Source: Prasinococcaceae sp. CCMP 1430 (Eukaryota; Prasinodermophyta; Palmophyllophyceae; Prasinococcales; Prasinococcaceae). Taken from it: a stretch of 48,320 bases of DNA. This document shows, one piece after another, positions 218 through 46,841 of this stretch. Numbering within the stretch: the first letter of the stretch is position 1; each line of letters opens with the position of its first letter. The translations under genes were made by a program, and so were the position numbers. The notes under the pieces were generated by a model. That model was not told where the DNA came from. It did not search any database and was given only the letters and a program-made list of their open reading frames with translations. The DNA is taken from assembly GCA_013416795.1 (NCBI GenBank), contig RQSC01000523.1, positions 267,435 through 315,754 of the forward strand, written 5' to 3'.

Positions 218-1576
218 ATGGCGCACGCGGCGTTCCTCCTAACTCATTCGCGGGCGGCGGCGGCAGCGACGGCGGTGCCAGCTCCGAGGAAGCACCACCC
301 GCGTGGCGATCCGCCGGGGGGGCGCCGCCCGCGTGCGCGCGGCCACATCGCAGCCGCGGCGGGCTCTGAGCCGGCGCTGCCGTCCGAGCCCGCAACGTCT
401 CGCGTGGACGCGTGCGATCCGTTCGAGCCGTCTCCGCCGTGTGTGGCGCTCCCGGGCGCGAGCAACCAGCTGCAGGCGCTGGCGACCACTTCGCGCCTCG
501 TCGCGAACACCGCCGATGTGGCGCTCGTGAAGGAACTCGCAGCGCCAGATGGCGGACGGCTGGTGCGCGACGCGTGCGCACACCCCGCGCTCGTACTGGC
601 GGAGTTTTGCGCCGCGGCCATGCCCGAGCTGCGCCTCAAGCACAACGACATCGCTCACCAGCTCGGTGAGGGCGCCTTGCACCTCAAGGACGTGCTTGAG
701 GGCGATGACGAGGGCGAGCTGCGTACGCGCCTGGTCCAGGCGGTGCGCTCCGCCTCCAAGGCTGGCGCGTCGCCTGCGGCCATCGCTGCTGCGCTCACGC
801 TCGACCTCGCAGAGGACCTCGCGGCGGTGCTGCCCGCCGACGGCCGCGTACTTGTGCCGCTGGACCCGATGCTGAGCTTCGATACGCACGAGTTAATCAA
901 CGCGGCGATGGGGCTCGCGGACGCTCTTGAACGCCGTGGCGTGGACGCCGCGTCCAAGCTGTGCGTGCGGATGCCCGCGACCTGGGAGGGTATCCAGGCG
1001 TGCGAGGCGCTCGAGAAGGAGGGTGTTCAGTGCAACATGACGCTCGTGTGCTCTCTCGCGCAGGGCATCGCATGCGCCGACGCAGGCGCGAGCCGCGTGA
1101 CGCCATTCGTCGGACGCACGCTCGACTGGCACAGGGCCGAGCACGCTCGCGATCACTACCCCGCACACGAGGACCCAGGTGTGCTCAGGACCAAGCGCCT
1201 CTACACGCTCTACCACCAGGAGGGCGTCCCCTCCATGGTGACGCCGACGTCTTTTCGCAACATCCACGAGGTGCGCGAACTGGCGGGCTGCGACAGCCTC
1301 ATAATTCCGCCGCTGATCATGGAGGAGCTGCGCGCCTGCTCGGACCCGCTCATGCTCAAGCTCTCAGACAACTACGCGCGCACGCTGTGGCCACGCGAGG
1401 AGGTGGCCGCCCGCCCGCTGTCTTTCGGCCGCTTCGTCCGGCTGCACGACGCCGACGCGTGCGCCGTGGAACTCCTCGAGAAGAGTGTGCACGGATTCGC
1501 CGTCGAGGAACGCCACCTGGAGGAGCTCGTCGCGGAGATCATGGTCGAGACGCCCACCGACAGCGATGAGGGGTAG
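218..1576 (+). CDS. Transaldolase-fold protein lacking catalytic residues (probable pseudoenzyme)
   Basis: 452-residue single-exon frame from the first in-frame ATG at 218. The frame is open further upstream, but only from a GTG. Residues ~90-445 follow transaldolase (TalB/Tal) from end to end: ATWEGIQACEALEKEGVQCN, TPFVGRTLDW, DPGV, and SFRNIHEVRELAGCDSLII are all present. By eye against E. coli TalB, the catalytic positions differ: Asp17 is Asn97 (VANTAD), Asn35 is His122 (CAHPAL), Glu96 is His224 (SFDTH) and the Schiff-base Lys132 is Arg251 (VRMPATWEG). The phosphate-side Arg and the NxT pair are kept. The fold and sugar-phosphate pocket therefore look intact while pentose-phosphate transaldolase chemistry is unlikely. 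The first ~80 residues are Ala/Pro/Arg-rich, as in an organelle leader. It converges with PAT1, 130 nt between stops. Confidence 0.85.
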   Translation: MAHAAFLLTHSRAAAAATAVPAPRKHHPRGDPPGGRRPRARGHIAAAAGSEPALPSEPATSRVDACDPFEPSPPCVALPGASNQLQALATTSRLVANTADVALVKELAAPDGGRLVRDACAHPALVLAEFCAAAMPELRLKHNDIAHQLGEGALHLKDVLEGDDEGELRTRLVQAVRSASKAGASPAAIAAALTLDLAEDLAAVLPADGRVLVPLDPMLSFDTHELINAAMGLADALERRGVDAASKLCVRMPATWEGIQACEALEKEGVQCNMTLVCSLAQGIACADAGASRVTPFVGRTLDWHRAEHARDHYPAHEDPGVLRTKRLYTLYHQEGVPSMVTPTSFRNIHEVRELAGCDSLIIPPLIMEELRACSDPLMLKLSDNYARTLWPREEVAARPLSFGRFVRLHDADACAVELLEKSVHGFAVEERHLEELVAEIMVETPTDSDEG

Positions 1577-1706: not shown

Positions 1707-3778
1707 TCACCATGTGGCGCGCGCGGCGAGCGCCTTGAGGGCCTCTGCCGCGGTGCCCTCCGCCGAGATAAGCGCTGCCTCGAACACGCGCTTCGGGGCG
1801 CCCGGCGCCGGCAGCTGCGCGAGCGCCGCCACGAATCTCTCCATGGCGCCCAACCACGCAGGCGCGCTCGCGGCGTCGCCCGTGACGTTGGTGCCGCACG
1901 CCAGCAGCGCCAGCATGAGCACCTCGCCGGGTGGAGGGGGGGCACTGTCGCCTCCCGCGCTCTCCTTGGCCCACAGCCCACGCGGATTCATGGCCGCGAG
2001 GCACGCCACCAGCATGGGCCTGTCCGACACGCCCATGGATGTCACGCACGACGCGCACGCCAGGGCCAGCTGCGTGGCAGCCGGGCACTTGCCACGGCGC
2101 GAGCCCAGCAGCGGGCCGAGGTTGCGGCAGGCGGCCACGGTGAGCGAGCAGGCGGCGGTGGCGGTGGGTGGGAAGCGCTTGAGCGCACCCACCAGCAGCG
2201 AGCGGCCCTTGTGCACCGCGCCCACACGCGCCAGCACGCGGTCGGCGGGCGTCGACGCGGGGGGCAGATGCTCGGCGAGCGACGCGCCCGGGGGCGGCAG
2301 CCGCATACTCGCGATGAGCATGTCCAGCATCTTGTCGCGGCGCCCGCGCAGCATTGCGCCGCCGTCCGCTGGCGCCGGCGGGGTCTCGAGGATGCGGGTG
2401 ATGTCGTCGATGTCGAGCAGCAGATTGTGCCCGTCCTCGATGAGCTGCCTCGCCGCGAGCATCGGCTCCTGCTCAAGCGGGCGCACCTCGTCCTCATCGC
2501 CGCCCACATCCTCGGCGTCCACGCTGATGCCCTCACCCTCGCGCGGCGGGATCTCCAGCATGGGTTTCGGCTTGGTGATCGACGAGTACGCGATCTTGCC
2601 GAGGCCGTCCAGCGCCACGTAGGACACGGCCGCGCCGCGCTGGCTCAGGCCGCTCTCGGCCGCGCCGTTGGCGCCCTCCGCCTGCGTGTCGCGCAGCACC
2701 GCCGGCGCGAACAGCCCCGGCCGCTGGCCGCCGCTCTTGGACGCCAGCGCGAGCGCGTAGTAGTCCTCGTGATACGCGCCGCGCTGGTGCGTGGCCGCGT
2801 ACTGGATGCGCGCGATCTGTTCGACCTCATGCGCGGCCATCATGCTGCCGCCGCGGAGCCCGCCCCCCCCGACGTAGAGGCGCGGGCCTAGGCCCGGCCC
2901 GCGCGGTGCCCCGGTGGCGCGCGGCGCGCCGGCCGGCGGCGGCGTGGCAGGTGGGGCCGGCCCGGGCCTATGCTGCGTTTGCCGCGGCTGCTGCTGCTGC
3001 TGCTGCTGCGGGGGCGGCTGGGCCTGCCGCTGCGGGGAAGGGGCGGGTGACGCGGCGCCCCACTGAGAGGGTGACAGCAGCGCCGGCGCGCCCCCCGCGG
3101 GCTGCGTCGGCACGAGCTTCGCCGGGTCCAGGCGCATTGGCTGCTGCTGCGACGGCGGCTGCTCCGCCTTTCGCTGCTGCTGCTTTTGCTGCATGCCCTC
3201 GAAGCCCGGGGGCGGCGCCCTGCGCATAGGCACCGCTGGCATTTGGAAATCGCTCTTGATGTCAGTGGTGCCGAGCAGCGAGGGCATGGCGGTGGGCTTG
3301 GGCGCCTTCACGCCGCCGCCGAAGTCCCACTGGTACTCATCACCCTCACCGGCGTCGTCGAGCAGCCCGAGCGCGTCCTCCTCGATGTTGCGTCCCACGC
3401 CGCTCGTGTCCTCCACCTCCGACGCGAAGCCGCCACCACCGGGGCCCGCGCGCGGCATGTTGGCGAAGTCGAAAGCCCCCAGGTCCTCCTCGATGCCGAG
3501 CATGTCATCTTCATCCGGTGGGAGAAGATCCTCGTCCTCGAGGGCGCCGCCAAGCTCGCCGAGCAGCGCGTCCGCGTCAGCCCCCCCCGCCGGCGCCCCG
3601 CCGAAGAAGCCGCCCGCGCCAAAGAACGCGGCTTGGCCGGCGCCGGCGCCTGCGTGGTGCGGCGGCACGGCGGGCGAGGCCATCGCCTGCTGCTGCTGCG
3701 GCTGCGCGGGTGGCTGCGCCTGCTGGCGCGCGGCCTCGTGCGCTGCCGCAAAGGCCTCGTGCTGCGCCTGCCAGTCGT
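1707..3778 (-). CDS. PAT1: PAT1 homologue, mRNA-decapping activator
   Basis: PAT1 bridges deadenylated mRNA, the Lsm1-7 ring and the decapping enzyme in P-bodies. The protein opens with a Gln/Pro/Gly-rich acidic region (residues with DEDDMLGIEEDLGAF), then a low-complexity PQ linker. Next comes the family signature: HEVEQIARIQYAATH followed by YHEDYYALALASKSGG, then VALDGLGKIAYSSITKPKP and RPLEQEPMLAARQLIEDG with LLLDIDDI, as in plant PAT1. The helical C-terminal domain (VGAVHKGRSLLVGALKRFP) runs to the TGA at 1707. The 5' end is uncertain: the first in-frame ATG is at 3683, while a likely acceptor (CATTCAG) at 3779-3781 suggests an upstream exon. The stretch upstream holds a GGT repeat and no clear first exon. 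Confidence 0.85.
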
Positions 3779-4027
3779 CTGAATGCGCCGTATGCACGGG
3801 CAAGCGTGTGAACGAGAGGCGGGCAGTAGCGCGGGTGGGTGGCAGGTGGCGGGTGGTGGTGGTGGTGGTGGTGGGAGCACAGCGTCCTATGTCAGATCAC
3901 GGTATCTCAGACGACGCGCGATCGCCCATGTCCCCCCGCCGGGTTCCACGCACACGCGGCACCGCGCGGCGTCCGCCTGCGCCCGCCGTGGTTAGGGCAA
4001 AGGGAAGCGCACGCCGCTCGCGCGCAC

Positions 4028-5305
4028 CTGCGCCGCCGCCGCCGCCGCCGCCGCCGCCAAGCAGCGCGACAGAATTGGCCCGCGCCCCGCCCCGACCATC
4101 ATGAGCACCACAGCATCCGCCGTCTCTACCTGCTCGTCGGGTACCTTCTCGCGCAGGTATGTCTCGACGGCCTGCTGGTAGACGTCGTATTTGGTCGCGT
4201 CGCGCTCGAAGGTCTCATAGGTGGCGCTCTCGAGATTGTCCATTAGCGGCTGCAGCGGGGATTGCAAGAAGTCACGGTAGGACGACTCGGCAACCTCACA
4301 TTCGCTCGGTGCGGGCAGCCGTCGGTACAGGAACGACACGTATTCCAAGTACGGAGCCAGCGGGTGCGCCGGCGCTCGCGATTCCTGCTGGCCGACCACT
4401 GGCGCTGGCGGTGGCTCGTGCCTGCGTGGTCCGTGCAGCACGATTTGCACGTCGTGCTGCAGCAGTGTGGACACGAGCTTCTGGTGGCGCTTCGAGAGAG
4501 TCGGGTAGCCATGTTTGTTGGTGAGGAAGGCATCGGTGGATATCAGCGCAGCGCGCACGGGTTCGCCGAGCCATCGCTCGAGCGCGGCGTCGCCGCCGTC
4601 AGGCAAATCGGCCCCCACCTCCAGCGCCACGCACAGCCGCGGGTGGTGGCCGCACATCGCGCGCAGCTCATGCCACGCCTCGAACGGGTCGTGTGCGAGC
4701 CGTAAGCTCGTGCCAGGCGCACCACTGACGTCGCACGCGCGCTTGGCCAACAGAGCGGCACCCGCGTCGGCGTTGGCGCTCGATGCTGCGATGACTTCGT
4801 CAGCCACCAGCGGAACGCGCACCCACGCACTCATACCCTGCGCGCGCCCGAGCGCCCTCAGCAGACTGTGCGCAGTCGCGGCGACGCGCTCGCCGAGCCG
4901 CGGCACAACGGCCGCCTGCAACGACAGGTGCGCCGCCCATGCGAGCTCTGCATCGAGCGCAGCCGCTGAATCGCGTGCGAGCGCAGGGTCACGCGAGTCT
5001 GCGTCGACCCACGCACTCACGGCGCCCACCACCTGCGAGGTCCACTGCGCCGACGACAGTGCGAGATCCGAGGGGAACACGGGCGGCGGCAGCGCTGCAC
5101 CCGGCAGCGTGCGTCTGGCGCTCGCCACGCGCCGCTCGCCAGACGCCGCAAGCGGCAGTACGGCAAAATCAAAAGCCACACCGCTCTCTGGTGCCACCAG
5201 CGCCTCCGCTAGGGCGCCCGCCGCGTCCTCCGAGTGGCCGCACACGACCCCCGCGTAGCGTGAGCGCGTGCCGCCGTGGTGGCCCAGAGCTCGGCCGAGC
5301 GGCAT
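4028..5305 (-). CDS. PRMT5: PRMT5 arginine methyltransferase, amino-terminal exon only
   Basis: PRMT5 makes symmetric dimethyl-arginine on Sm proteins and histones. Start ATG at 5303-5305 is chosen because MPLGRALGHHGGTRSRYAGV matches the leader of plant PRMT5. The exon carries the TIM-barrel domain (SSAQWTSQVVGAVSAWVDAD, WVRVPLV, HPRLCVALEVG) and the linker LQPLMDNLESATYETFERD ending in SAM motif I, VGAGRGPI. About 10 residues after motif I a poly-Ala run meets a consensus donor (CAG/GTGCGC at 4028/4027). The remaining Rossmann motifs, the substrate double-Glu loop, the beta-barrel and the dimerisation arm are not found downstream: only 249 nt separate this donor from the PAT1 exon. Either the 3' exons were lost in assembly or the gene is truncated. 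Confidence 0.85.
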
Positions 5306-6536
5306 CGCGGCGCCCCTCCCCTCTCCTGCTGGCAGAGCGCGGCACCCCCGCGTTCCCTCTCCACCTTCCTCGCGTCCTTGCCACCGCAAGCCACCGCGGG
5401 CGCCGCCTGTGCGCCCCCACGCACCCCGCCCCGCGCCCCGCTGCGCCACCCACGCCGTCTGGCCGCAGCCTCGGCGTGCACAGCGGCGGCGGCCGCCGCC
5501 GCCGCGCCAGCGCCCGCCGCGCTGGGCACGCAGTTAACCCTATATCTAACCGCAAATGCGTTGTGGCAGGTCCTGCTCGCTATCAAAGAGTCCTTCATCC
5601 CGGTCTCACAGTGCGATGACCTCAACCCAGGGCTGCAAGCGGACACATCAGCGCCACATGGCGGCCGGCGCGCGTACGCGCGCCCTCCCCCTCTCCCCCC
5701 CTTCCCCTCTCACTCCCGCGCGCGCGTGCTCCCCCTCTCCCTCGCTACCCCTCTTTTGCGCGCGCTGGCCAGTGCGCGGGCGCGCGGGCGGGCCGCCGCG
5801 CGCGCGCGCAGGCGCTCCGGGGGGTAGGGGTGAGCGCCCGCGCTCGCGGCCGAGTGCGCTTTTGCCTTCGGCGGGCAACACGCGCAGGGCGCCGCTTGCG
5901 CGATGTGCCTCACGGGCGGAGACAACGCCGATGAGTTCGACATGCTGATGGACGTCAACATGGCTGCGTTCATGGAGCTCGAGGCAAAGCTGGAGGAGGC
6001 CGCTGGCGGAGGAGGTGATGAGGAGAGCGACGAAGGCTGCGGCCCGCAGCCGGCGGAGCGACCGGAGCGTCCCAGCGACGGCGAGTGCTGCCAGCGCGCG
6101 TGCGCGCGCTGCGTGTGGANGGGAGCGCGCACGCGCGCGACACTTTTTTTTCGGGGGGTGTGGTGGGTTGGGGAACGGGAGCGGGCGATGCTTTTTGATG
6201 AGGCTTTCATATTTTCGATGTTTGTGGTGGAGGGCGCGCGCGCGCGGGCGCGCGCGGGCGAGCGTGTTCATTTGATAACCGTCGCTATCCAGAAATGCGC
6301 GTGGGGCGCGCGTGGGTGGCGGCGGATCGCGAGCATGAACACGGATGAACATGTCCGGGGGACCGCTCGGGTGCGAAGGGGCACGGACACCTGCCCCCGC
6401 CATCCCCCCAGCCACCCCCTGGGCCCGTGCGCTCGCATTGCACGCTGGTGGCCGCCGATGAGCGCGCCGATGGCAATCAGGCGCTGACGTCCCTCAACCC
6501 GCACCCCACCCGCAAACCCCACCACACACACCGCAG
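5306..6536. other. Divergent upstream region between PRMT5 and MAPK genes
   Basis: 1.2 kb between the PRMT5 start and the first recognisable MAPK exon. It should contain MAPK exon 1, but I find no glycine-rich loop (GxGxxGxV) in any frame. It holds a less GC-rich patch at ~5528-5650, purine/pyrimidine alternation (GCGCGC runs at ~6236-6262), one ambiguous base at 6120 and one possible exon, listed separately. Confidence 0.4.
5903..6085 (+). CDS. Possible short acidic exon, unidentified
   Basis: From an ATG at 5903 the frame reads a methionine-rich amphipathic stretch (DEFDMLMDVNMAAFMELEAK) and then a Gly/Glu/Asp linker (GGGGDEESDEGCG). Its composition is less Arg/Ala-biased than the random GC-rich frames around it, which is the only reason to suspect coding. 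The frame runs into low-complexity sequence and an ambiguous base at 6120. It might be a 5' exon or leader of the MAP kinase downstream, or part of another gene. I recognise no domain and the end coordinate is approximate. Confidence 0.25.
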
Positions 6537-7988: not shown

Positions 7989-9149
7989 CTACTTGTCCTT
8001 CTTTTCCTCGAGCTTGTCACCCCCCTCCTTGCCCTCCTCCTCCTCCTCGTCCTCGGGCGGCAGCTCGTCGTACGCAAGCAGCTCCTTGAACTCCCCGCGC
8101 CACCATGCGTTCAGTGTCGACGCGCCCATGACGCCCGGCACGATATAGAGCAGGGCGGGCTGTGCGGCGTCGAAGACGTTCATGACGACGATGGTAAGCA
8201 CAAGGCCTGCGACGTAGCCAAAGAATGCCGCGTGGAAGGTGCTGTGCGTAGCGGGCCTCGAGCGGCCGCGAGCGGCGTCGAAGCGCAGCAGCAGCGCGAC
8301 GACGATGCCCGGGATGACGATGTCACCCAAGCCGAGCATCGAGAACGGGCTGGCGGCGGCCGCCTCCCCGACGCGCGGGAAAAGCAGCTTGATGGGCGCT
8401 TCGACGTTGCGTGCCACGCTCACCATGACGGGCGTGCCGAACACCCAGAAGATGTCGTAGATGAACAGGCCCGCGAGGAGGATGGCGCCCACCTTGAAGC
8501 TGCCGATGGACAGGAACTCGAGCCCTTGGACCGAGAACGCGAGGCCGAGCGTGTTATTTGCCAGCCAGTGCTTGGTGGCGACGTAGTAAGCCACCACCGG
8601 CGACGCCAGTACCGCGGCAATGGCATCGGGCACCGCGACTGTCAGCTCGGCCGGCTCGTCCATCAGCAGCGGGATCTTGACCGTCTTGTGGATGCCGATC
8701 TGCTTCTCGCGCAGGCGCACAGGCACGTACGGCGTGACGACCGGGCTGATTGTGCCCGCGAGCGCGAGCACGCCGAGCACCACGAAGTATATCGTAAGAA
8801 GCGCGTTCACGAGGTCCTTGTTGAGCACCTTGAACGCCACAAACAGCCCGAACAGCACAGCGCTGCCCATCAGCGGGAAGCGCATCGCGTCACCCCTCTC
8901 CATGGTGGTCATCTCGCTTAGGTCGAGGCCACCGTCGACGCTTGCGTCCTCACCCGCCCTGCACGACCGATACGAGCCGACGTATACCGCCAGGGAGGCC
9001 GTCACCACGATCGACAGGTTGGTCGGCACGGGCACTACCGCCGGCAGCGCCGCCGCGAGGAAGAGCGCCACGTGCATCGCCACGCTGTGCAAGTCGGCCG
9101 CGCGCGGCGCCGCCTCGGCCGCCGCGCCCCCTGCCGCCCCCCCGCCCAT
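7989..9149 (-). CDS. SPP: Signal peptide peptidase (ER intramembrane aspartyl protease)
   Basis: 386 residues, close to the ~375 of animal and plant SPP. It cleaves leftover signal peptides and other type II membrane segments inside the ER membrane. Start at ATG 9147-9149 (MGGGAAGG). Nine-TM presenilin-like topology is visible: the catalytic pair is YD (LFIYDIFWVFGTPVMVSVA, ~residue 230) and GxGD (MLGLGDIVIPG, ~275), followed by the PAL motif (QPALLYIVPG, ~330). The tail is acidic and ends EEKKDK, a KKxx ER-retrieval signal, supporting ER rather than plastid or lysosomal SPPL location. The frame stays open far upstream, but that part is low-complexity and not homologous. Confidence 0.93.
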   Translation of the reverse strand: MGGGAAGGAAAEAAPRAADLHSVAMHVALFLAAALPAVVPVPTNLSIVVTASLAVYVGSYRSCRAGEDASVDGGLDLSEMTTMERGDAMRFPLMGSAVLFGLFVAFKVLNKDLVNALLTIYFVVLGVLALAGTISPVVTPYVPVRLREKQIGIHKTVKIPLLMDEPAELTVAVPDAIAAVLASPVVAYYVATKHWLANNTLGLAFSVQGLEFLSIGSFKVGAILLAGLFIYDIFWVFGTPVMVSVARNVEAPIKLLFPRVGEAAAASPFSMLGLGDIVIPGIVVALLLRFDAARGRSRPATHSTFHAAFFGYVAGLVLTIVVMNVFDAAQPALLYIVPGVMGASTLNAWWRGEFKELLAYDELPPEDEEEEEGKEGGDKLEEKKDK

Positions 9150-9780
9150 CGCGAGCCCGGCCTCCTCGCAGACGCGGCGCAGCTCGTCGCCGTCGATCTC
9201 AACGCGCGCGCGCGGCCCCCTCCCCGCGCGTGCGCGCGCCGCTAAAAAGGAAAGAGGCTCGAGCCTCGCCTCCCTCCCGAACCCGGCAGACGCCCGCCGC
9301 GCGCCCTGTGCCCCCCTCCCCCCACCCCACCACCCGCCCCCCGCGCCCCCGCGCCCGCCCCCGTCACCATCACGCCGCGCGCCGATCGATAACAGCTCTC
9401 GCCACCGAAACGCACGCGCTCGCGCGCCACGCCACACCGCCATCAAAATCAATGGCACGAGCGCGCGCGAACCCGGCTCCGCGGCGTCCCCCCGGTTCGG
9501 TCCTGGATCAGATCGGCACGGCGATGGGAGTTGGCGCGGAACGTCGCAGGGGGTCGCGCGAATTGAGCGGACGTTTGATGGGGAATGAGGGGGGACGGCG
9601 CGCGAGGTGGCGCGCGCGCGCGCGCGGAAGCGCGCGCGCGGCGCAGGCGCGGGTGTTTGAGCGGGGGAGCGCTGTGCCACGGCGCGCGCCACTCTGCGGG
9701 CGGGCGCGGGCCGGTGGGGGGTGGCGGGACATCGTGGCACAGGGCAGTCAGGAAGCAGGCAGGCGGGGGCGGGCGGATCG
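9150..9780. other. Divergent promoter region of SPP and VPS23
   Basis: 631 nt of very GC-rich DNA with CGCGCG runs (9611-9642) and C-rich tracts on the top strand. I see no gene, TATA box or repeat family here. Confidence 0.4.
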
Positions 9781-10116
9781 ATGGGGGCTGTCGAGGACGC
9801 TGTCGACGATGCGATGTCTGCGCGCGGCCCCGGCGGCCCGCTGTCGTACGCGGGCGGGCCGCACCAGCTCGCGGCCGTGCGCAAGGCGCTCGTCGACGCG
9901 CGGCGGGAGTTCGTGTCGCTCGTCGCCCTCGCCGCGCCCGCGACGCTGCGCTCGGGCAAGACGGGGAAACTCTTGAAACTCGAGGGGACGGTGCCCATGT
10001 ACCACCGGGGGAACAAGGTGTGCACGCGCGTGGCGCGCAGTTCATTGCGCTCCGTGCCTGCGGGCAATGCTCCCGCGCATGTGCGCTGACGCAATCGTGC
10101 TGTCCGCTCCCGCTCC

Positions 10117-10155
<39 letters not shown>

Positions 10156-11475
10156 CACCGCCGCTGCTGCTCTCTGGGCCTGCCTCTCTCTTTGTGCGCG
10201 CGTGCGCAGTACAACCTCCCTGTGGCAGTGTGGCTCCCTGAGGCGTTCCCCGCTGAACCCCCGGCGTGCTTTCTGGTTCCCGCGCCGACGATGCTCATCA
10301 AGCCGCGGCACTCATGCGTGGACAGCATGGGCCACTGCGTGACGCCCTACATCCTGAATTGGATGGCCAACGCGTCGAACATTGTCGACATGCTCCATTC
10401 GATGAACATCGCGTTCGGCTCGGATCCGCCGCTGTACACAATGCCGCAAGGGCGGGCACCGCGGGACCGTCCACCGCAGGATGCGCACGCGCAGCTCACG
10501 CATGTGTATGCCAGACGTAGCGCAGGCTACGTCGAGACTGCCGCGAATGGCCACGGTGACGGTCACGCGCACATACAGCACCCCCAGGCAACGTACACCG
10601 TCCCGCAGGCGTCATTCATCGACCCTCCGCAGCATGTGCAGCCGCCGCCGCAACCGCCGCCGTCTCAGTATCAGCACCAAGACCAACACTATCAGGCATC
10701 GCCACCGCAGCAGCAGCAGCAGCAGCAGCAGCAATCGCAGCAATCGCAGCAGGAAGAGCAGCAGCACGCTTTCGCACCTGGGCAGCAGCAGTACAGAAAT
10801 CCGATGCAGCCAGGTTCTCCGCGCTCGAGATTCACACAACACAGCGTCCCCGTCGCTGGCGTGGCTACTTTACCCGCGGCGGTGGCAATGACAGCCTCCT
10901 CTTCCGAGGCAGTGCCCAGCGCCACAGCCTCGGCGTCGGCGGATCGCAGCGCGGGTCCGATGGCCGCGTTTCGCACCAGTGCCATAGCCGAGCTCACCGC
11001 CAAGCTCAGAGCCGCGCTGCAGGCCGACAGCACCGCGTTCGCCGTCGAGTACGACAGGACGCTCGCGAAACAGCGAAGCTTGCAGGAGCGCGGGCAGGCG
11101 ATACGATCGATGGCGACCGCGCTTGCGGAGGAAAGGACGGGGCTCGAGACCGCCGTTGGGGCCCTGCATGCTCACGCGCGCGAGGTGAACGGCTGGCTTG
11201 AGCAGCACGGCAAAGCGGCCGCTGAGGCCAGCCGCAGCATTTCTGTGGATGAGCTCGTTGTGGGTGCCAGCCCGCGCGACGACCAGGTGGCGCGTGCCGC
11301 CGCGGACGACGCGGCGGTGGAAGACACGCTGTATGCGCTGGATGACATGCTCGCACGCGGCAGGCTACCCTTCGACAACTACATGAAGCGCGTACGCAGC
11401 CTGTGTAGGGAGCAGTTCACAGCGAGGGAGACCGCGCGTAGGGTGATGGCCGCTGAGCGCTACGGCGAGTCGTGA
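9781..11475 (+). CDS. VPS23: ESCRT-I subunit VPS23/TSG101 (ELC-like)
   Basis: Two exons, 9781-10017 and 10210-11475, joined in phase 0 (AAG/GTGTGC ... GCGCAG/TAC), giving 500 residues. The joint restores the UEV core: GNK then YNLPVAVWLPEAFP, MLIKPRHSCVDSMGH, YILNWMANASNIVDML and DPPLY, as in TSG101. UEV domains bind ubiquitin and PTAP-type peptides without E2 activity. A long Pro/Gln linker (residues ~175-270) includes a CAG-encoded polyQ run at ~10709-10732. A coiled-coil stalk follows, and the C-terminal steadiness box (VEDTLYALDDMLARGRLPFD) assembles ESCRT-I. The protein sorts ubiquitinated cargo at endosomes and acts in cytokinesis. Confidence 0.93.
10118..10154 (+). repeat. (GCT)n microsatellite inside the VPS23 intron
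   Basis: Uninterrupted GCT/CTG repeat, about 12 units, in the 192-nt intron at 10018-10209. It sits in the same gene as an exonic CAG run. Confidence 0.9.
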
Positions 11476-12620: not shown

Positions 12621-12783
12621 CGCGTCAGCGGCCGCGGCGGCCACAGCCGCCGCGCTCGACCACGTGCTCGTCACGCACGCCGCACCGGCAGCCGCCCGCC
12701 CCCAGCTGCNCGCATCATCTCGACGAGTTGCCTGGAAAGGGGTGGGGGGTGGGAGGGGGAGGGAAGGGGGGACGCCCGCGTGC

Positions 12784-13194
12784 TCACAGAGTGGCGAGCC
12801 CCTCCTCGTCGCGGAAGTTGGTGAAGCGGTTGGCCATCTGCCGCCGCCGGCGCTCTCGCGAGCGCCGCATGCACGCGTACGCGACGTACACGGACGCGCC
12901 GATGGCGAGCAGGACTGCGGCCACGAGCGCCGAGTACAGCAGCACCGAGCTGTCCGTGTCTGTGGAGGCGTCCTTCGGGTCCGACGGTGGGGGCGGCGAT
13001 GGAGCGGGCGGCGCAGACGGTGTGGAATTTGCAGGCGGTGAGGGCGTCTCGGGCGGTGAGGGTGGCGTCGAAGGTGAAGGAGGTGTTAGGGGAGGAGGCG
13101 GCTGCGCTGGCGGCGCCGTCGTGTTGGGGGCTGGCGCGGGCGCGGCCGCCGCGCCCTCTCCGCTGCCCGCCACCCCACCACCGGGCGCGCTCAT
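12784..13194 (-). CDS. Proline-rich single-pass membrane protein, unidentified
   Basis: 136 residues from ATG 13192-13194. An extracellular-type Pro/Ser/Thr stalk (PPPPLTPPSPSTPPSPPETP) with NTT and NST sequons is followed by one membrane helix (LLYSALVAAVLLAIGASVYVA) and a short basic cytosolic tail (RRSRERRRR) ending in RDEEGLATL. The stalk is like hydroxyproline-rich algal wall proteins. No signal peptide is visible, so this may be the last exon of a longer type I protein. I do not recognise a family. The stop lies just upstream of the PIG-C gene on the same strand. Confidence 0.5.
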   Translation of the reverse strand: MSAPGGGVAGSGEGAAAAPAPAPNTTAPPAQPPPPLTPPSPSTPPSPPETPSPPANSTPSAPPAPSPPPPSDPKDASTDTDSSVLLYSALVAAVLLAIGASVYVAYACMRRSRERRRRQMANRFTNFRDEEGLATL

Positions 13195-22923: not shown

Positions 22924-24430
22924 TTAATCGCCCACCGCAGCGACAGGACAGGCCGCCGAGCAAAGAGCGGCGTGGTCAAAAGACCCCACGCGGCTGGCGG
23001 CGGCCGCCGCAGCGTGGCCGCCCGGCTCGAAGCGCGAGATGTAGCCCAGCTGCGAGCGCAGCGCAGCGCCGAAGCCGTACGCCGCCCATCGCAGAAGCAG
23101 GCGGCCAACGACCGTCGCGGGATTGACGAGCACGCCGCTCCAGCGCGCAGCGCGCCGGAGGCCATCCGTGTACGCCGCAGCGCCGCGCCCGTCCCCTCTT
23201 ACCTCGATCCCGAGCGCGTCAGCAAGCGCATTGCCCTGCAGCACGCGTGTCGCGTGGGCGAGCTGTTCCGCTGTGGCACGGCGGGGCGGCCTCCCCTCTA
23301 CGGCAGCGAGCGTGGCCTTGGCGAGCTTCGTGGAGAGCTGGTCGGGCCACACCAGGTACACCCATATACTCTGGAGGGCAGCGCGCGCGTCGGGCAGCGA
23401 GCGGCACGCCAGGTTGTGCTCCTCATCGATGCCGATGCAGTGGCCGACTACCCGCCAGAGGTGCAGGAAGTCCTCCACGGCCTCGAGGCTGTCGCTGAGA
23501 TCCACCCCCAATCGCTCCAGGCCGTCAACCACCACCGCTGAGAAGGCCAACTGCGTGACGACCATGTCTATTTGGTTGATCGGTACCCCGTCGGCGGCGG
23601 CGACAGCTTCGTAGGCCGCGCTGCAAGAGAGGCGTGCGCGCACTGCCGCGTGCATGAGGCGCACGCGCACCACCGCGCGCCAGCCCGCCCCGTGGACCGG
23701 CACCATCGCTTCGGGGCCGGCCACCACAGCAGCGACCAGCTGCGCCGTCTCCAGGAGCCTCCGATAGGCGCGGTCGCACCCAGCGGCTGATGTGTCGCCG
23801 CGCAGCGCACCGCCGCATGAGAGCACGCGCGCGATGCGAGGCGCCGCGTACCCGCCCACGAGCGAGAGGTGCAGCAGGCAGGCGCCGCAACCGGGCAGGT
23901 AGCGGAGAAAGAACTCTGCCCCACGCGCGCAGCGAGCGGTGTCTGCCCACTCGGGCAGCGTTGAGACGTCCTCGAGCAGCGCGCGCGCGCGAGCATCGCC
24001 ACTGCCCGCCGCGCGCGCGAGGGCTCCCAGCGCGCAGCCGCTGTCCGCGAGCGCGCCCTCCTCGAGCCCACGCACCTCGGCGGGCGTGCGCGCCGGCAGA
24101 GCGAGCGTGCTGCGAAGGGACAGCAGCGGTGCGAGCAGCGGTTTGAGAGACGTGGGGAGCCACGACGTGGCCGCCGCGGGGACTTTCGCGCCGCCGCCTT
24201 CCCCACCGACGCCGCTGCCGCCCCGCTGCCGCCGCTCCCGCCGCCACTCAGCGAGCACCACCGGCAGCGTATCGTCGGCGAGCGCGTCCCCCCGCGACCT
24301 GAGCGGCTCCAGCTCGCGCGGGCGGCGGTGGGCCGCCGTCCACTCGAAGCCATTGCCCAGGTGCTCGACGGCGTCGCCGGGCGCGTACGCGTCGGCGTCG
24401 GCCGCGCACCGCGGCGTGGCGGCCCCGCAC
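22924..24430 (-). CDS. DUF2236/mpaB-Lcp type haem oxygenase-like protein, 5' end in gap
   Basis: About 500 residues to the stop at 22924, interrupted upstream by the N gap. It matches the ER-bound oxygenase mpaB / latex-clearing protein catalytic domain: LPEWADTARCARGAEFFLRY, VGGYAAPRIARVL, RRLLETAQLVAAVV, then GAGWRAVVRVRLMHAAVR (the His of LMHA is the expected haem ligand), PINQIDMVVTQLAFSAVV and DFLHLWRVVGHCIGI. Bacterial relatives cleave rubber; fungal MpaB cleaves terpenoid chains. The algal substrate is unknown, possibly a polyprenoid or carotenoid-like lipid. The Arg/Lys-Thr environment of rubber oxygenases could not be judged with the N-terminus missing. Confidence 0.8.
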
Positions 24431-24953
24431 NNNNNNNNNNNNNNNNNNNNNNNNNNNNNNNNNNNNNNNNNNNNNNNNNNNNNNNNNNNNNNNNNNNNNN
24501 NNNNNNNNNNNNNNNNNNNNNNNNNNNNNNNNNNNNNNNNNNNNNNNNNNNNNNNNNNNNNNNNNNNNNNNNNNNNNNNNNNNNNNNNNNNNNNNNNNNN
24601 NNNNNNNNNNNNNNNNNNNNNNNNNNNNNNNNNNNNNNNNNNNNNNNNNNNNNNNNNNNNNNNNNNNNNNNNNNNNNNNNNNNNNNNNNNNNNNNNNNNN
24701 NNNNNNNNNNNNNNNNNNNNNNNNNNNNNNNNNNNNNNNNNNNNNNNNNNNNNNNNNNNNNNNNNNNNNNNNNNNNNNNNNNNNNNNNNNNNNNNNNNNN
24801 NNNNNNNNNNNNNNNNNNNNNNNNNNNNNNNNNNNNNNNNNNNNNNNNNNNNNNNNNNNNNNNNNNNNNNNNNNNNNNNNNNNNNNNNNNNNNNNNNNNN
24901 NNNNNNNNNNNNNNNNNNNNNNNNNNNNNNNNNNNNNNNNNNNNNNNNNNNNN
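24431..24953. other. Assembly gap (523 N)
   Basis: Run of N separating the 5' parts of two divergent genes. Starts and promoters of both lie in it. Confidence 1.
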
Positions 24954-25626
24954 GTGCGCGGCGCGGGGCCGCCGCGGCCGCGCGCGCGTGGCAGCCGCGC
25001 TGCTGCCCCTGGCTGCTGCGCGTGCCGGCGATGCGGAGGTCGTCAAGGCCCTCCTCGACTACGTGCGTGCCGCGGGCGCCGTGGATGTTGTCGTTGACGC
25101 CGACGGCCGCACGCCCGTCCATTTCGCTGCGCTGCACGGCAACGCTGCGGCTGCCGCTGCGCTATGCGCGGCGGGTGCCGCCGTGGATGCCGCCGACGCG
25201 CTCGGTGCGACGCCCCTGCATCTTGCCGCCGAGGCAGGACACATCGTCGCGGTGGAGACGCTGCTGCGGCGCGGTGCCGATCATGCGCGCGCGGACCCCA
25301 AGGGCCTCACGCCCATGCACCGCGCGGCGCGGGCAGGCCACGCCGATGCGGTGCGCACGCTCGTCGCCGCGGGCGCGTCCGTGTGTGTGCGCGACGCCGC
25401 CGGGCGGCAGCCGCTGTCGCACGCGGCCGAGCGCGCGCGCGCGGCGTGCGTGTGCGCCTTGCTCGAGCTGGGCGCTGGCGCGCGTGAGGTGGACGGACGG
25501 GGCCGCAGCGCCCTCGAGTGGGCGCAGGCCGAGGGCACGTCGATGGCCACCGACAAACTGCTGCCGCGGTGGGCGGAGGTCCTGCGCGTGCTCGAGGGGC
25601 ACGTGCACGCGGCGCAGGGGGGGTAG
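24954..25626 (+). CDS. Ankyrin-repeat protein, 5' end in gap
   Basis: About 220 residues in frame from the gap to TAG at 25624-25626. Consecutive ankyrin repeats are visible: DGRTPVHFAALHGNAAAAAA, GATPLHLAAEAGHIVAVETL, GLTPMHRAARAGHADAVRTL, GRQPLSHAAERARAACVCAL and GRSALEWAQAEGTSMATDKL. The end (LLPRWAEVLRVLEGHVHA) is helical. Ankyrin arrays are protein-binding scaffolds and the missing N-terminal part may hold another domain. No function can be given. Confidence 0.85.
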
Positions 25627-28899: not shown

Positions 28900-29135
28900 C
28901 CGATATTCTCTTTAAAAACAGCTACACCGTGGCGGAGTGTGATTATTTTATGCGTCCTCCATCGCGCGGCGGGCCGCCCGCCAAGGTGGAACCCACACAG
29001 CGTGTTTTGGTTTTGATCTTAACATGAAGCGAATCCTTCCTGCTTACTATATTCAAATTACATCTAAAATGGATTCCTTTATGTTTGTTGGACGGAAAAG
29101 GTTGCATGCAGATGTAATATGGTATGCATTTTGTG
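28900..29135. promoter_or_regulatory. AT-rich island upstream of eIF4A-III
   Basis: The most AT-rich patch of this half of the window, directly before the helicase gene. It contains ATTACATCT at 29055-29063 and its reverse complement AGATGTAAT at 29111-29119. It likely holds the promoter and 5' UTR. Confidence 0.4.
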
Positions 29136-30829
29136 GAATCCACGTGTCGGCGGGCGGCGCGGCGGCTGCCGGCGACGACGCCACAGAGCGCGGCGGCGGC
29201 GCGGCCACAGGACCCACGCACAACCCACCCACGTCCACCCACCGCAACCGCAACCGCGACCGCCGGCCCCCGCACGCCACTCCCAGCCCCCCGGCCGAGG
29301 GCCAGCAACCTCGCACCAGCGTTCGACGGGCTCGCGGCCCAGCCGAGGGAGGGCGGGAAGGAGGGGAGGGGGGGGACCGCGAGCGCGAGCGCGCTGCCGC
29401 GGCGCCGACCGGCGGCAACCGCAAGGTGTCCGGCCTCGACATCGACGAGACTGATTTCACGACGAGCAAGGGCGTTAAGGTGGTGAAGTCCTTCGAAGAG
29501 ATGGGCCTGCGCGACGAGCTGCTGCGCGGCGCGTACGCGTACGGCTTCTCTGCACCCTCGGCGATCCAGCAGCGCGCGCTGCCACCCCTGCTGGCAGGGC
29601 GCGACGTGATCGCGCAGGCCCAGTCAGGCACGGGGAAGAGCTCGATGATCGCGCTGGCGGGCTGCCAAGTGTCAGACGTGTCCAGCCGCGACCCGCAGGT
29701 GCTCGTGGTGTCGCCCACGCGCGAGCTCGCGCTGCAGACGCAGGCGGTCGCCCAGGCGCTCGGCCAATTCGACTCGGTGAAGGCGCACGCGTGCGTCGGC
29801 GGCAAGAGCGTCGGCGAGGACCTGCGCGTGCTCGAGTCGGGGTGTCATGTGGTGTCGGGGACGCCCGGACGCGTGTACGACATGATCAAGCGCGGCGCCC
29901 TGCGCGCCAAGTCGCTCAAGCTGCTCATCATCGACGAGGCCGACGAAATGTTGGGCAGAGGATTCCAAGATCAGATCTACGACATCTACCGCTACCTGCC
30001 ACCCGACGTGCAGGTGGTGCTGGTGAGCGCGACCATGCCGCGCGATGTGCTCGACATGACGACCCGCTTCATGACCGACCCGATGCGCATCCTCGTCAAG
30101 CGCGACGAGCTCACGCTCGACGGAATCAAGCAGTTCTTCGTGGCCGTCGAACGCGAGGAGTGGAAGTTCGACACCCTGTGCGACTTGTATGACACGCTGA
30201 CCATCACGCAGGCGGTCATCTTCTGCAACTCGCGCAAGAAGATAGACTGGCTCGCGAGCCGCATGCGCGAGGCCCACTTCACCGTCTCCGCGCTGCACGG
30301 CGAGATGCCACAGCGCGAGCGCGACGATGTCATGGGCGAGTTCCGCTCGGGCGCCACGCGCGTGCTTCTCTCGTCGGACATCATGGCGCGAGGCATCGAC
30401 GTGCAGCAGGTCAGCCTGGTGATCAACTACGATCTGCCCAACTCGAGGGAGAACTACATTCACCGCATCGGTGAGTCACTGCGCGATTCCGCGCCCGCGC
30501 GCGTGCAAGCCGCCCTCCGTGATGTTCAACTTGGGGTAACGCCCAGAATATACGCTATACCGAGGCAAAACAGCCGTGCGGAGAGCTTTACAGTGCTGAG
30601 AGGAACGCGAGGCGGGCCTCATCCACTTTGCGAGCAATCGCGGCGTCGCTAACGCCGCGCGGCGCGTTCCCCCTTGCTGCGCACGCGCTGCGCAGGGCGC
30701 TCCGGCCGCTTCGGCCGCAAGGGCGTGGCCATCAACTTCGCCACCGACGAGGACATGAAAGCACTCAGGGAGCTAGAGAGCTTCTACAGCACGCAGATCG
30801 ACGAGATGCCCGCATCCCTGCAGCTATGA
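29069..30829 (+). CDS. EIF4A3: eIF4A-III DEAD-box RNA helicase (exon junction complex)
   Basis: Two exons, 29069-30470 and 30696-30829, joined in phase 1 (CATCG/GTGAGT ... GCGCAG/GG) to rebuild [22 protein letters not shown]-box motifs in order: Q motif [19 protein letters not shown], Walker [33 protein letters not shown] and HRIGRSGR. The stretch [20 protein letters not shown] with [20 protein letters not shown] is nearly identical to eIF4A-III, and the end [13 protein letters not shown] fits. It is the RNA clamp of the exon junction complex. The start is doubtful: in-frame ATGs at 29024 and 29069 lie in the AT-rich island, whereas homology begins near 29430 after a Gly/Arg-rich stretch. Confidence 0.93.
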
Positions 30830-43129: not shown

Positions 43130-44480
43130 GGTGTCTCTGTGCGTGTCGTGCGAGTTGGGCTGCTCTGGAATACGCGGAATTAGGCGGCGACCTGGTGCGC
43201 TCGCTGGTTGCGTTTGATAGGAATAAACGGGACGGAGCGCTGCGAAATGTGCAGCGGGTGGTCTTCGGCCGTGGCGGCGGGGCGGGGCTGGGAGGAGGAG
43301 GGGGTTGGAGGGAGGCGGGCGGCGTGTGCCAGCTGCGTCCGGAGGGGTGTGCTCTTCCGCGCGCGCGAGTCGACGGGCGAGAGAGGTTCCCCTGAAAAGG
43401 GAGGGGGGGGGGGAGAGGTGTCGCGTGCGGTGCTCTGAGCGTGCGCTGTGGCGCGGTCGCGCGGAGCGGCGGCTGTGCTGCGCGCAGACTGAGTAACGTC
43501 TGCGGCGGCGGCTGGAGCGGTGTGGCGCCCACGCGCGCCCGCAGGTGCGTTTTGATGGCGCGTCGTCGTCTTGCGGCGATCGGGCGCGCGCGTCCCGCGA
43601 ATCGGCGCCCGCCGGCGCCATCAAACGGCACTGCCGAGCCGTTCATCGAAAGGCGGTAGGAAGCGCGCGCGTTTCGCCAAGGCGACGGCGGGCGGGGTGC
43701 AAAAGGCGGGAAGAAAACGCGCGAGGGAATTTCGCGCGCGCCGGAGGCAAAGAGACGCGGCGAATTTCGGCGCCCCGTTCGTTGCGAAAGGGCCCCTTTC
43801 CCCTCCATTTCTCCGTTTCGTAAGCACCCCTTCCGGGGCGCGCCTCGCGGTTGCGCGTGCCCGGAGCGTCGCGCGTCGCGTTTTCGTTTTTCCGCTCGCG
43901 CTCGCGTTTGGCGTCCCGCGGATTCGTCGCGCATTTCGCGCGCGCGCGCGCGGGGGCGCGCGGGCGCGGCAGTGGGCGCCCGCGCGGCGCGCGCCGCGCA
44001 CCCACCCAAAACGCCCGCGAGGGGCGCCGCGACGCGCGGCGAAACCCAAATCACGTGGGGCGAGGGACCCACGTGGGTCGGGCGCAGCGGAGTGTGCCCG
44101 GCGTGGAGCGGACGGAGAAGAGGCGGGAAGGGACGGGGATGGGTGGCGCGGCGGGCGCTCGGCCGGCCTGTGTGCACAGCTGCAGAGCTGCAGAGGGGGG
44201 CGCATCACGGTATCACGGTAGTAGAGCACCCACACCTACACCCACACCCCCTCTCGCCGCAGGACGGGGGGCGCCGCGCCCACTCCGCCCGCAGCAGGGA
44301 GCCGCGGCGCTCGGCGACGCCCGCCAGGTGGCGCGGGCGGGAGGGGGACGCGCCGAGCGGAGCGGTGCCGCGCGCGCGGTGGGGGTGGGGGTGGGGGGTT
44401 AGGGGTGAGGTTTGGGGTAGTGCGCCAGCAAGGACGCGAAGCACCAGTCTCACGTGGTCGGCTTCCGACTCCGCGGCGCG
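43130..44480. other. Long divergent intergenic region
   Basis: 1.35 kb without a supported gene. It contains GAATTTCGCGCG (43727-43739, E2F-like), a pair of G-boxes (listed separately) and GGGGTGGGG tracts near 44380-44400. Confidence 0.4.
44052..44079. promoter_or_regulatory. Two G-boxes, one within a 14-bp palindrome
   Basis: CACGTG at 44052-44057 and again at 44070-44075, 18 nt apart. The second is the centre of the perfect palindrome GACCCACGTGGGTC (44066-44079). In plants G-boxes bind bZIP and bHLH factors, often for light or stress response. Confidence 0.5.
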
Positions 44481-46841
44481 ATGCGGCGCAGGCAAGGGGC
44501 CGCAGGCGAGGGCGTGGCATCCGAGCCGCTGCTGCGCGCGCGCGCGCTGGGCATTGGCCACACGGCGGGCGATGGCGGGCTGCCGCGTAGCGTCGCGTAT
44601 ATCGCGTGCGCGGCTGCCGCGCTGGCGCTGTGGTGGGCGGCTCGCACGTTCTTCGTGGCATTTGGTGGCGGCGGCCTCGCGGGCGGCTCCGAGGTAGACG
44701 CGCGACAGCTGGCGAGGCGCTTTGCTGGGACGGCCGCAGCCTCGCCGCGCGCAGCGAGCGCTCGTGAGGCGCTCGCGTATGCCGCGGCAGCGCTCGATGG
44801 CGACATGGTGCGCGCGCTCGTCCCCGCCATCGCAGTGGGAGAGGATGTTGACGTGTCGGAGTCGAGCGCGTTCGCGTGCGGCAACACGCCCTTGCATTAC
44901 GCCTGCGCGACGCTCGACCGCGGCGCGCGCACGGCGCGAGAGCTGCTCTCGCGCCCGCGCCGCGACCTGCAGCTCCGCGAGGCCGCAGCTGTTGAGCGCG
45001 CAATCCGCGGCGGCAGGGAGCTCTTCCGACCGGGCGCGGACGCCTATTCAATCGGCGGCGCGGTGACACTACTCGAGAGCGCCATGGTGGACATCACGAG
45101 GCAGCTCCTTGCAGCAGGTGCCGATGTTGGTGCGCGCAACGTCGCAGGCCGCACTCCACTGCACGCCGCCGCCGAGGGCGGCGCGCAGGAGCTCTGCAGC
45201 GTCCTCCTTGCGGCCGGCGCCCCGCCGAGCGCAAAAGACGAGCTAGGCAGGACCGCCGCCGACCTCGCAGCAGCGCGTGGCTTCAGTGAGCTGGCGTCCT
45301 CGCTGCGGAAGAAAGAGGATGATGGTGTAGCAGGGCAGCCTGGGCGTAGCGGTGCCCACGGCGATGGCACCACCGCGTCGACACCGTTGTTGAGCGCCTT
45401 GCCGGCAGCGGAGGTGGAGAGGCTGCGCGCTGCCTCGGCTGCACTCTACGCTGACGGTGGTGGCTGGTCAAGTGAGGAGCTCGCGGGTGGGCTGATTGAC
45501 GACGTCCTCGAAGTCCTCGGCCCAAGCAAGTGCGAGCTGTCGCACGTGTACGCTGGGGGCAGCGCCCTCCGCGGGGTCCAGAAGGGCGATGCGCGGGACG
45601 CGAGTGGGGCGGTAGAGGCGGAGGCGGCTGGTGGCGACTCCATCGTCGACGAGCACCTCGTTAGGGGTGAGCCGGCGCTCTTTATTGGTGACCTCATTCG
45701 TGCGTCACCGGCACAGGGCATGACGGTGGGAGAGCAGGGCGATGGCGACGAGAGCAGCGGCTCTCCGGCCGGCGATATCCCACTGCGTGAAGTGTTGTCT
45801 GCGGAGTCGCTGCTGTGGCGGCAAGGCGGGCGTGTCGTGTCAGTCGGTGCTGTGCCGTACGCGTCGGGCTTCGGTGGCGGCAAGGAAGATGCCATGTCCT
45901 TAGGGATCTTCGCGCGCCTGCATGTGCTCCACAACGCCACCGTCGACCCGCCGCACAGCGCCGAGACGGCCGCCCGAGCACGCCCCCCTTACGTGTTTGA
46001 AACGGTCGCGTGCGAGGGGAGCGGCATCGCGGACGTCTCGACGGCAGGCATAGGCGTCATGGACGCACTCACGCGCTCAAAAGACCCCTCAATGGCAAGC
46101 GGTAGCGGCGACAGTGGCGGAGACTCCTGTGCGTGCAGTTCGCTGCAGTGGTCGCTCGGCGGCGCTGGCTCAGGCGCGCAGGTGCATACGCACGGGGCGG
46201 CGATGGCAACTCTGGCGTACGGTCGCAAGCTCTGGCTGTTGACGCCGCCAGCACGCGCGCAGGTGGGCTCGCTCACCGGCGCACAACACGTTTTGCAGGC
46301 GGCGTCACAGGAGCTCGCCGCGCGAGCGCGCGGCGAGCGCCCATCCACTCTGTTCTGTGTGCAGGAGGCGGGCGACTCGCTCCTCGTTCCTGAGCTCTGG
46401 GGACACGCAGTGCTCAACCTGCGAGCGAGCGTCGGCCTGAGCGTCGAAGTGCAGCTGCCACAACGCGCGCGCGCGGCGACGGCGCAGGCGGCGGCGCCTA
46501 TCACCAATTCGAGCTGCAAGTGCATGTCGCGGCCCGCATGGGCACCCAGGTGGTGCGCCGACGCGCCGGTGCAGCAGCGCATCGCTGACTGGCAAGGGCG
46601 CGTCGCCGCCGCGCAGGCGCTCACTGCGCAACTCGGTGAGCGCACCGCGCGACGCGCGGGCATCGACGCTCGCAACGAGGGCGCGTTCCTGCGCGATGTG
46701 CTTCGGCGCGAGGAGGCCGCCGCGCGGAGGGAGGGCGCGGGCGCGCGCGCCGGCCGCGGGTGGGAGCACATGGAAGGGAACATGCACATGCGCCAGCACC
46801 TGCGCAGACGCCCCCACGCGAGCCTCGACGCAGCCGAATAA
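44481..46841 (+). CDS. Ankyrin and JmjC/cupin-domain membrane protein
   Basis: 786 residues, single exon from ATG 44481. A single N-terminal membrane anchor (SVAYIACAAAALALWWAART) predicts a type II protein. Ankyrin repeats follow (GNTPLHYACATL, GRTPLHAAAEGGAQELCSVL, GRTAADLAAARGFSELASSL). The C-terminal half has a JMJD8-like cupin: LQWSLGGAGSGAQVHTHGAA with His569 and His571, then LAYGRKLWLLTPP, and LLVPELWGHAVLNLRASVGL with His642. The metal site is HxH rather than HxD/E, as I recall for JMJD8. Hydroxylase activity is therefore uncertain. Lumenal location would follow from topology. The cell partner is unknown. Confidence 0.78.
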   Translation: MRRRQGAAGEGVASEPLLRARALGIGHTAGDGGLPRSVAYIACAAAALALWWAARTFFVAFGGGGLAGGSEVDARQLARRFAGTAAASPRAASAREALAYAAAALDGDMVRALVPAIAVGEDVDVSESSAFACGNTPLHYACATLDRGARTARELLSRPRRDLQLREAAAVERAIRGGRELFRPGADAYSIGGAVTLLESAMVDITRQLLAAGADVGARNVAGRTPLHAAAEGGAQELCSVLLAAGAPPSAKDELGRTAADLAAARGFSELASSLRKKEDDGVAGQPGRSGAHGDGTTASTPLLSALPAAEVERLRAASAALYADGGGWSSEELAGGLIDDVLEVLGPSKCELSHVYAGGSALRGVQKGDARDASGAVEAEAAGGDSIVDEHLVRGEPALFIGDLIRASPAQGMTVGEQGDGDESSGSPAGDIPLREVLSAESLLWRQGGRVVSVGAVPYASGFGGGKEDAMSLGIFARLHVLHNATVDPPHSAETAARARPPYVFETVACEGSGIADVSTAGIGVMDALTRSKDPSMASGSGDSGGDSCACSSLQWSLGGAGSGAQVHTHGAAMATLAYGRKLWLLTPPARAQVGSLTGAQHVLQAASQELAARARGERPSTLFCVQEAGDSLLVPELWGHAVLNLRASVGLSVEVQLPQRARAATAQAAAPITNSSCKCMSRPAWAPRWCADAPVQQRIADWQGRVAAAQALTAQLGERTARRAGIDARNEGAFLRDVLRREEAAARREGAGARAGRGWEHMEGNMHMRQHLRRRPHASLDAAE

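Follow-up and report, generated by a model that had tools for sequence, protein, structure and literature searches.

A transaldolase-like protein with all four catalytic residues replaced, possibly retained as a sugar-phosphate-binding pseudoenzyme

Transaldolase is an enzyme of the pentose phosphate pathway. At the beginning of the window (the whole stretch of 48,320 nucleotides analyzed here) lies a gene whose product, P0001, belongs to the transaldolase family and carries unexpected residues at all four catalytic positions: Asn, His, Pro and Arg are found in place of Asp17, Asn35, Glu96 and the Schiff-base Lys132 of E. coli TalB (residue numbers and roles are those of TalB). Judging from its residues, P0001 is very probably dead as a transaldolase: with both the Schiff-base lysine and the Glu/Asp acid-base pair absent, there is very little chance of transaldolase or aldolase turnover. 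The explanation held here, with slightly more than even confidence, is that of a transaldolase pseudoenzyme kept for a binding role, the chemistry being left to an intact paralogue, L001. The coordinates of the features are reported in Table 1.

Table 1. Features of the transaldolase-like gene, and further open frames of the window matched by Pfam
Feature	Position	Strand	Basis or remark
CDS, transaldolase-like protein P0001	218..1576	+	452 aa, single open frame, no intron required
Putative organelle targeting peptide, residues 1-75	218..442	+	composition
Predicted transaldolase alpha/beta barrel, residues 76-452	443..1573	+	structure model
Asn97 at TalB Asp17	506..508	+	codon aac; alignments
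His122 at TalB Asn35	581..583	+	codon cac; alignments
Pro214 at TalB Glu96	857..859	+	codon ccg; ungapped alignment
Arg251 at Schiff-base TalB Lys132	968..970	+	codon cgg; alignments
Asn273 and Thr275, TalB Asn154 and Thr156, both kept	1034..1042	+	alignment
Thr295 (TalB Ser176 replaced); Phe297 and Arg300 (TalB Phe178 and Arg181 kept)	1100..1117	+	alignment
Ser345 and Arg347, TalB Ser226 and Arg228, both kept	1250..1258	+	alignment
Signal peptide peptidase	7989-10094	-	Pfam match
Vps23/UEV	10192-11475	+	Pfam match
MPAB/Lcp oxygenase	22924-25137	-	Pfam match
DEAD-box helicase	29024-30652	+	Pfam match
Ankyrin repeats	44454-46841	+	Pfam match

The family assignment, already made in a preliminary description of this DNA, is confirmed: Pfam PF00923 (TAL_FSA) matches residues 172-435 with 161.9 bits (E 2.8e-47), against a curated cut-off of 27. 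With TIGR00874, the TalAB equivalog (EC 2.2.1.2), P0001 scores 207.5 bits, below the cut-off of 396.2; the miss is not decisive, since the intact L001 also falls below it (303.8), while P0004, from the green alga Edaphochlamys debaryana, is above (419.6). That 218-1576 is truly coding is supported by the periodicity of GC content: positions 1, 2 and 3 of the codons, in the part of the CDS encoding the mature protein, have values of 0.743/0.459/0.857, a pattern that recurs in L001, in the more diverged homologue L004 and in the neighbouring frame, whereas the 3' flank lacks it (0.571/0.585/0.561). A tblastn search with P0004 as query gives a match in one frame at 446-1540, with 38.6% identity. 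The N-terminus is a putative organelle targeting peptide, as suggested by its composition (among residues 1-45, R and K total 8, D and E 1). For the remaining part, a confident structure model, obtained from P0001 and 61 of the 119 listed homologues, matches solved transaldolases across the entire barrel and predicts the transaldolase-type alpha/beta fold; being homologue-based, it is no proof of stability, and the match consists of ranges, with no residue pairs, and is not a full structure-based alignment. Essential residues are lost and the fold is, by prediction, retained, as expected for a pseudoenzyme.

Homologues were compared using 119 of the 120 matches listed, out of 290, the excluded one being P0002, which represents the same protein. 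Glu96 and Lys132 are kept in all 119; Asp17 and Asn35 in all the 118 that can be scored at these columns, P0064 being a 255-aa fragment without residues there. In P0001, the Asp17 and Asn35 columns fall outside the Pfam match and inside a weak phmmer stretch (0.4 bits); on both columns, this stretch, BLASTP and MAFFT concur. For Glu96, the P0001 string GRVLVPLDPMLSFDT pairs with GRVSTEVDARLSFDT without gaps, which places Pro214 at this column. The preliminary description had correctly reported the loss of the four residues, with Asn97, His122 and Arg251 at three of the positions; its placement of His224 at Glu96 is rejected, as this residue (CAC, 887-889) sits ten residues beyond Pro214. His122 and Arg251 are located at, or adjoining, strands of the model. 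TalB mutants D17A, N35A, E96A, T156A and S176A are found among PDB titles.

An intact Lys/Asp/Glu set located elsewhere, which according to the same description would have overturned its claim, was not found. None of the nine lysines in the modelled mature part lies on a beta strand, so that an alternative Schiff-base lysine is rejected; no acidic residue occupies the place of Glu96, and none of the motifs DTG(D/E), TTNP, STEV and IKxxTW turned up in a six-frame reading of the first 3 kb (DTGD occurs once in 19.8 kb of contig C89). A frameshift or a hidden exon is likewise rejected: with five transaldolases as tblastn queries, every significant match lies in frame 2, and the best one in any other frame has an E value of 0.048.

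The six ligand-site residues marked as kept in Table 1 include the equivalents of Ser226 and Arg228, which bind phosphate in transaldolase structures. Sugar-phosphate binding by P0001 may be considered fairly likely on the strength of these residues. A Francisella transaldolase with the K135M mutation was crystallized in complex (PDB entry 3te9), presumably with a sugar phosphate. Conservation was also scored over 108 near-invariant columns, defined from 59 comparators: P0001 keeps 64 of them and changes 44. The earlier statement that fold-defining strings are well conserved holds in part: 47 of 75 columns are kept after Lys132, only 17 of 33 up to it. By the same count, P0004 keeps 99, P0003 97, L001 82, the Arabidopsis and Vitis TalAB proteins 55 each, and L004 34. 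Against the background of 44 changed columns, the change of four catalytic columns out of four has a p value of 0.025, and the retention of six ligand columns out of six a p value of 0.039; both values are modest, and the residues were picked afterwards.

The locus is present twice in the genome: bases 1-2871 of the window recur with 100% identity at C89:325995-328865, and this second copy includes the P0001 gene. P0002, a public protein of 452 aa with 9 member sequences, is 99% identical to P0001 and has the same four residues; the two differ at residues 4, 19 and 26, all inside the putative targeting peptide, and are identical from residue 27 on. Judging by these differences, P0002 probably stems from another strain or allele, and their confinement to the N-terminus, although the events are few, would fit a constraint on the mature part. 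An artefact of sequencing, assembly or gene model, as might be suspected from a window beginning at a stretch of at least 9.4 kb of N and from two copies of the locus, 100% identical up to a breakpoint at 2871 that hints at an assembly join, is hardly credible: the four substitutions are no base-calling slip, since the DNA of the second copy is identical and P0002 shares all four, and at least 6 base changes from the nearest codons would be needed to produce them.

The breakpoint of identity at base 2871 is sharp and falls within the next gene, a frame of 698 aa at 1707-3803 on the minus strand, with an N-terminal part which is acidic and Gln-rich; the C89 copy of this neighbouring gene has a different N-terminus. 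No Pfam match was obtained for its product at E 0.001; it recalls to us the decapping factor PAT1, as an impression only. The stretch of N preceding the window (C101:258000-267434) hides the 5' surroundings of this copy of the locus, whereas the C89 copy has sequence at the corresponding place. A further segment, 4048-6119, is 100% identical to C112:168561-170632 and ends at a single N (6120). The identical stretches shared with C89 and C112 hint at either a recent duplication or an assembly join. Finally, 431 bases at 12758-13188 are 98% identical to C71:177774-178205, and are perhaps a repeat element.

Six-frame searches of the genome (24.5 Mb in 145 contigs, with stretches of N), using either PF00923 or the Arabidopsis protein as query, led to four places each, corresponding to three distinct genes: the P0001 gene, found twice, C101:179857-180807 (L001) and C72:764976-765611 (L004). 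GC content ranges from 0.68 to 0.72 in the four stretches checked. L001, a TalAB gene in which the Asp, Asn, Glu and Lys are all intact, lies on the same contig as P0001, about 87 kb away; the second, catalytic-looking transaldolase, suggested as a check in the preliminary description, thus exists, and transaldolase activity can come from it. L004 (L004:1444-2943, minus strand) is a weak match. Like P0001, it features Lys132 changed to Arg, within a similar string (RMPAT), and has lost Glu96, here replaced by Ala; unlike P0001, it is more diverged, as indicated by its column count, and in the column of Arg181 the alignments show either Thr or a gap. P0125, a public relative of L004, has 2 differences from it over 342 compared residues. 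The genome, as read from these residues, carries two degenerate transaldolases, P0001 and L004.

In a tree of 38 hand-picked rows, P0001 forms a clade with P0004 and P0003 (support 97/95), at the end of a branch of 2.87 changes per column, while L004 and P0125 group with plant TalAB proteins (89/91). The clade of P0001, P0003 and P0004 is likely, although unproved: in AU tests, placements of P0001 with L004 (p 0.343), land plants (0.174) or L001 (0.098) are not rejected. Origin of P0001 as a duplicate of L001 is not preferred: the two are 31% identical, and placing them in one clade lowers the log-likelihood by 13.5 units. Among the relatives with a name, P0004 is the best match (the 38.6% identity extends over 365 residues); it shares with P0003 and P0001 the same ligand-site residues, and both P0003 and P0004, unlike P0001, retain Asp, Asn, Glu and Lys. 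Orthologues with the same four substitutions, proposed earlier as a check, are absent, beyond the near-identical P0002, from the 120 matches listed of 290; with residues 76-252 as a lone query, P0002 is the only one of 7999 scored candidates to be retrieved at E 0.001.

According to the preferred explanation, the ancestor of P0001 would be a transaldolase of the TalAB type, resembling the green-algal one, and P0001 would retain the barrel along with the sugar-phosphate pocket. With Arg, Pro, Asn and His at the places of Lys132, Glu96, Asp17 and Asn35, neither a Schiff base nor the acid-base steps would be possible, and L001 would supply transaldolase activity. P0001, probably imported into an organelle, the plastid most likely, may bind ligands resembling fructose 6-phosphate or sedoheptulose 7-phosphate and act through this binding, serving either to sense them or, as an inactive partner, to tune the active enzyme. 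The role of sugar-phosphate sensor or regulatory subunit, considered in the preliminary description, would fit the kept ligand-site residues, and a sensing or regulatory role in the organelle is what we prefer to infer. Against the preferred explanation stand the long branch, the 44 changed columns and the replacement of Ser176 as well; its main weakness is that conservation is seen solely among near-identical sequences.

The main rival is the slow decay of a redundant transaldolase, its activity gone and no present function left, with a frame still open because GC-rich DNA has few stops. The branch length and the altered near-invariant positions would be expected in this case, as would the retrieval of P0002 only by residues 76-252; open frames are indeed common, 125 ORFs of at least 150 aa being present in the window. 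Decay is nevertheless rather unlikely: L001, L004 and the neighbouring frame have a similar codon-position GC pattern, significant tblastn matches stay in one frame throughout, the ligand-site residues are retained, and P0002 differs within the putative targeting peptide only, by few events. The earlier argument against a decaying pseudogene receives modest support from the coding periodicity and from the location of these three differences. The retained ligand site would equally suit a new enzyme, where barrel and phosphate pocket are kept and a different chemistry, without need of a Schiff base, relies on His122 and Arg251 as new functional groups; these two occupy the former catalytic positions, at or adjoining model strands. 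A new enzyme must be considered improbable, since Pro214 and Thr295 suggest no new acid-base pair, and neither the matches listed nor the region search gave a family that would reveal selection on the new residues. Persistence of transaldolase or aldolase activity, through another lysine or a substrate-assisted route, could appeal to the predicted fold and the intact ligand-site residues; with no modelled lysine on a strand, and Glu96, Asp17 and Asn35 lost too, there is very little chance that it holds.

The pseudoenzyme explanation may be extended to a wider proposal, which is decidedly speculative and probably not correct as it stands: green lineages would repeatedly have turned plastid TalAB into a non-catalytic, sugar-phosphate-binding regulator. 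Two pseudo-transaldolases and one active enzyme, in the present genome, would report or damp the pool of fructose 6-phosphate and sedoheptulose 7-phosphate, so that transaldolase cannot short-circuit the Calvin-Benson cycle at its aldolase/SBPase branch. As argued in PMC8234502, transaldolase running alongside aldolase and SBPase would defeat the drive exerted by SBPase on the cycle. A literature search, with most subscription papers outside its reach, found no report of a transaldolase pseudoenzyme. P0001 offers a concrete protein for asking whether dead transaldolases regulate carbon flow, and raises the question of why land plants retain a TalAB gene with a differently damaged active site.

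In comparison with E. coli TalB (1onr) and human transaldolase (1f05), P0001 has the catalytic quartet replaced, and Thr at the position of TalB Ser176. Plant-type TalAB proteins have changes of their own. In the set considered (P0124 and P0126-P0243, from 120 of 1653 matches listed, with P0125 left out; all rows that carry an organism name come from flowering plants), N35S, T34V and N154H are found in 119 of 119 listed proteins. S226A and S176Q are each found in 118, and D17, E96 and K132 are retained in all 119. The plant signature (N35S, N154H and S226A, with Lys, Glu and Asp kept) is not present in P0001, which has H, N and S at positions 35, 154 and 226 and has lost Lys, Glu and Asp. At1g12230-type TalAB has been detected in chloroplasts by proteomics, as stated in PMC8927339. 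PMC4407918 reports that the TalAB type is the only one in green algae and, with reference to Caillau and Quick 2005, that activity in E. coli lysate was seen solely for the other plant type (TAL, At5g13420). Set beside the plant proteins, the P0001 gene is thus a further case of altered active sites among green TalAB proteins, reached by a different route: At1g12230 (P0131) and its relatives are, like P0001, green-lineage TalAB proteins with a damaged active site, but the residues lost are different, and D17, E96 and K132 are kept in plants.
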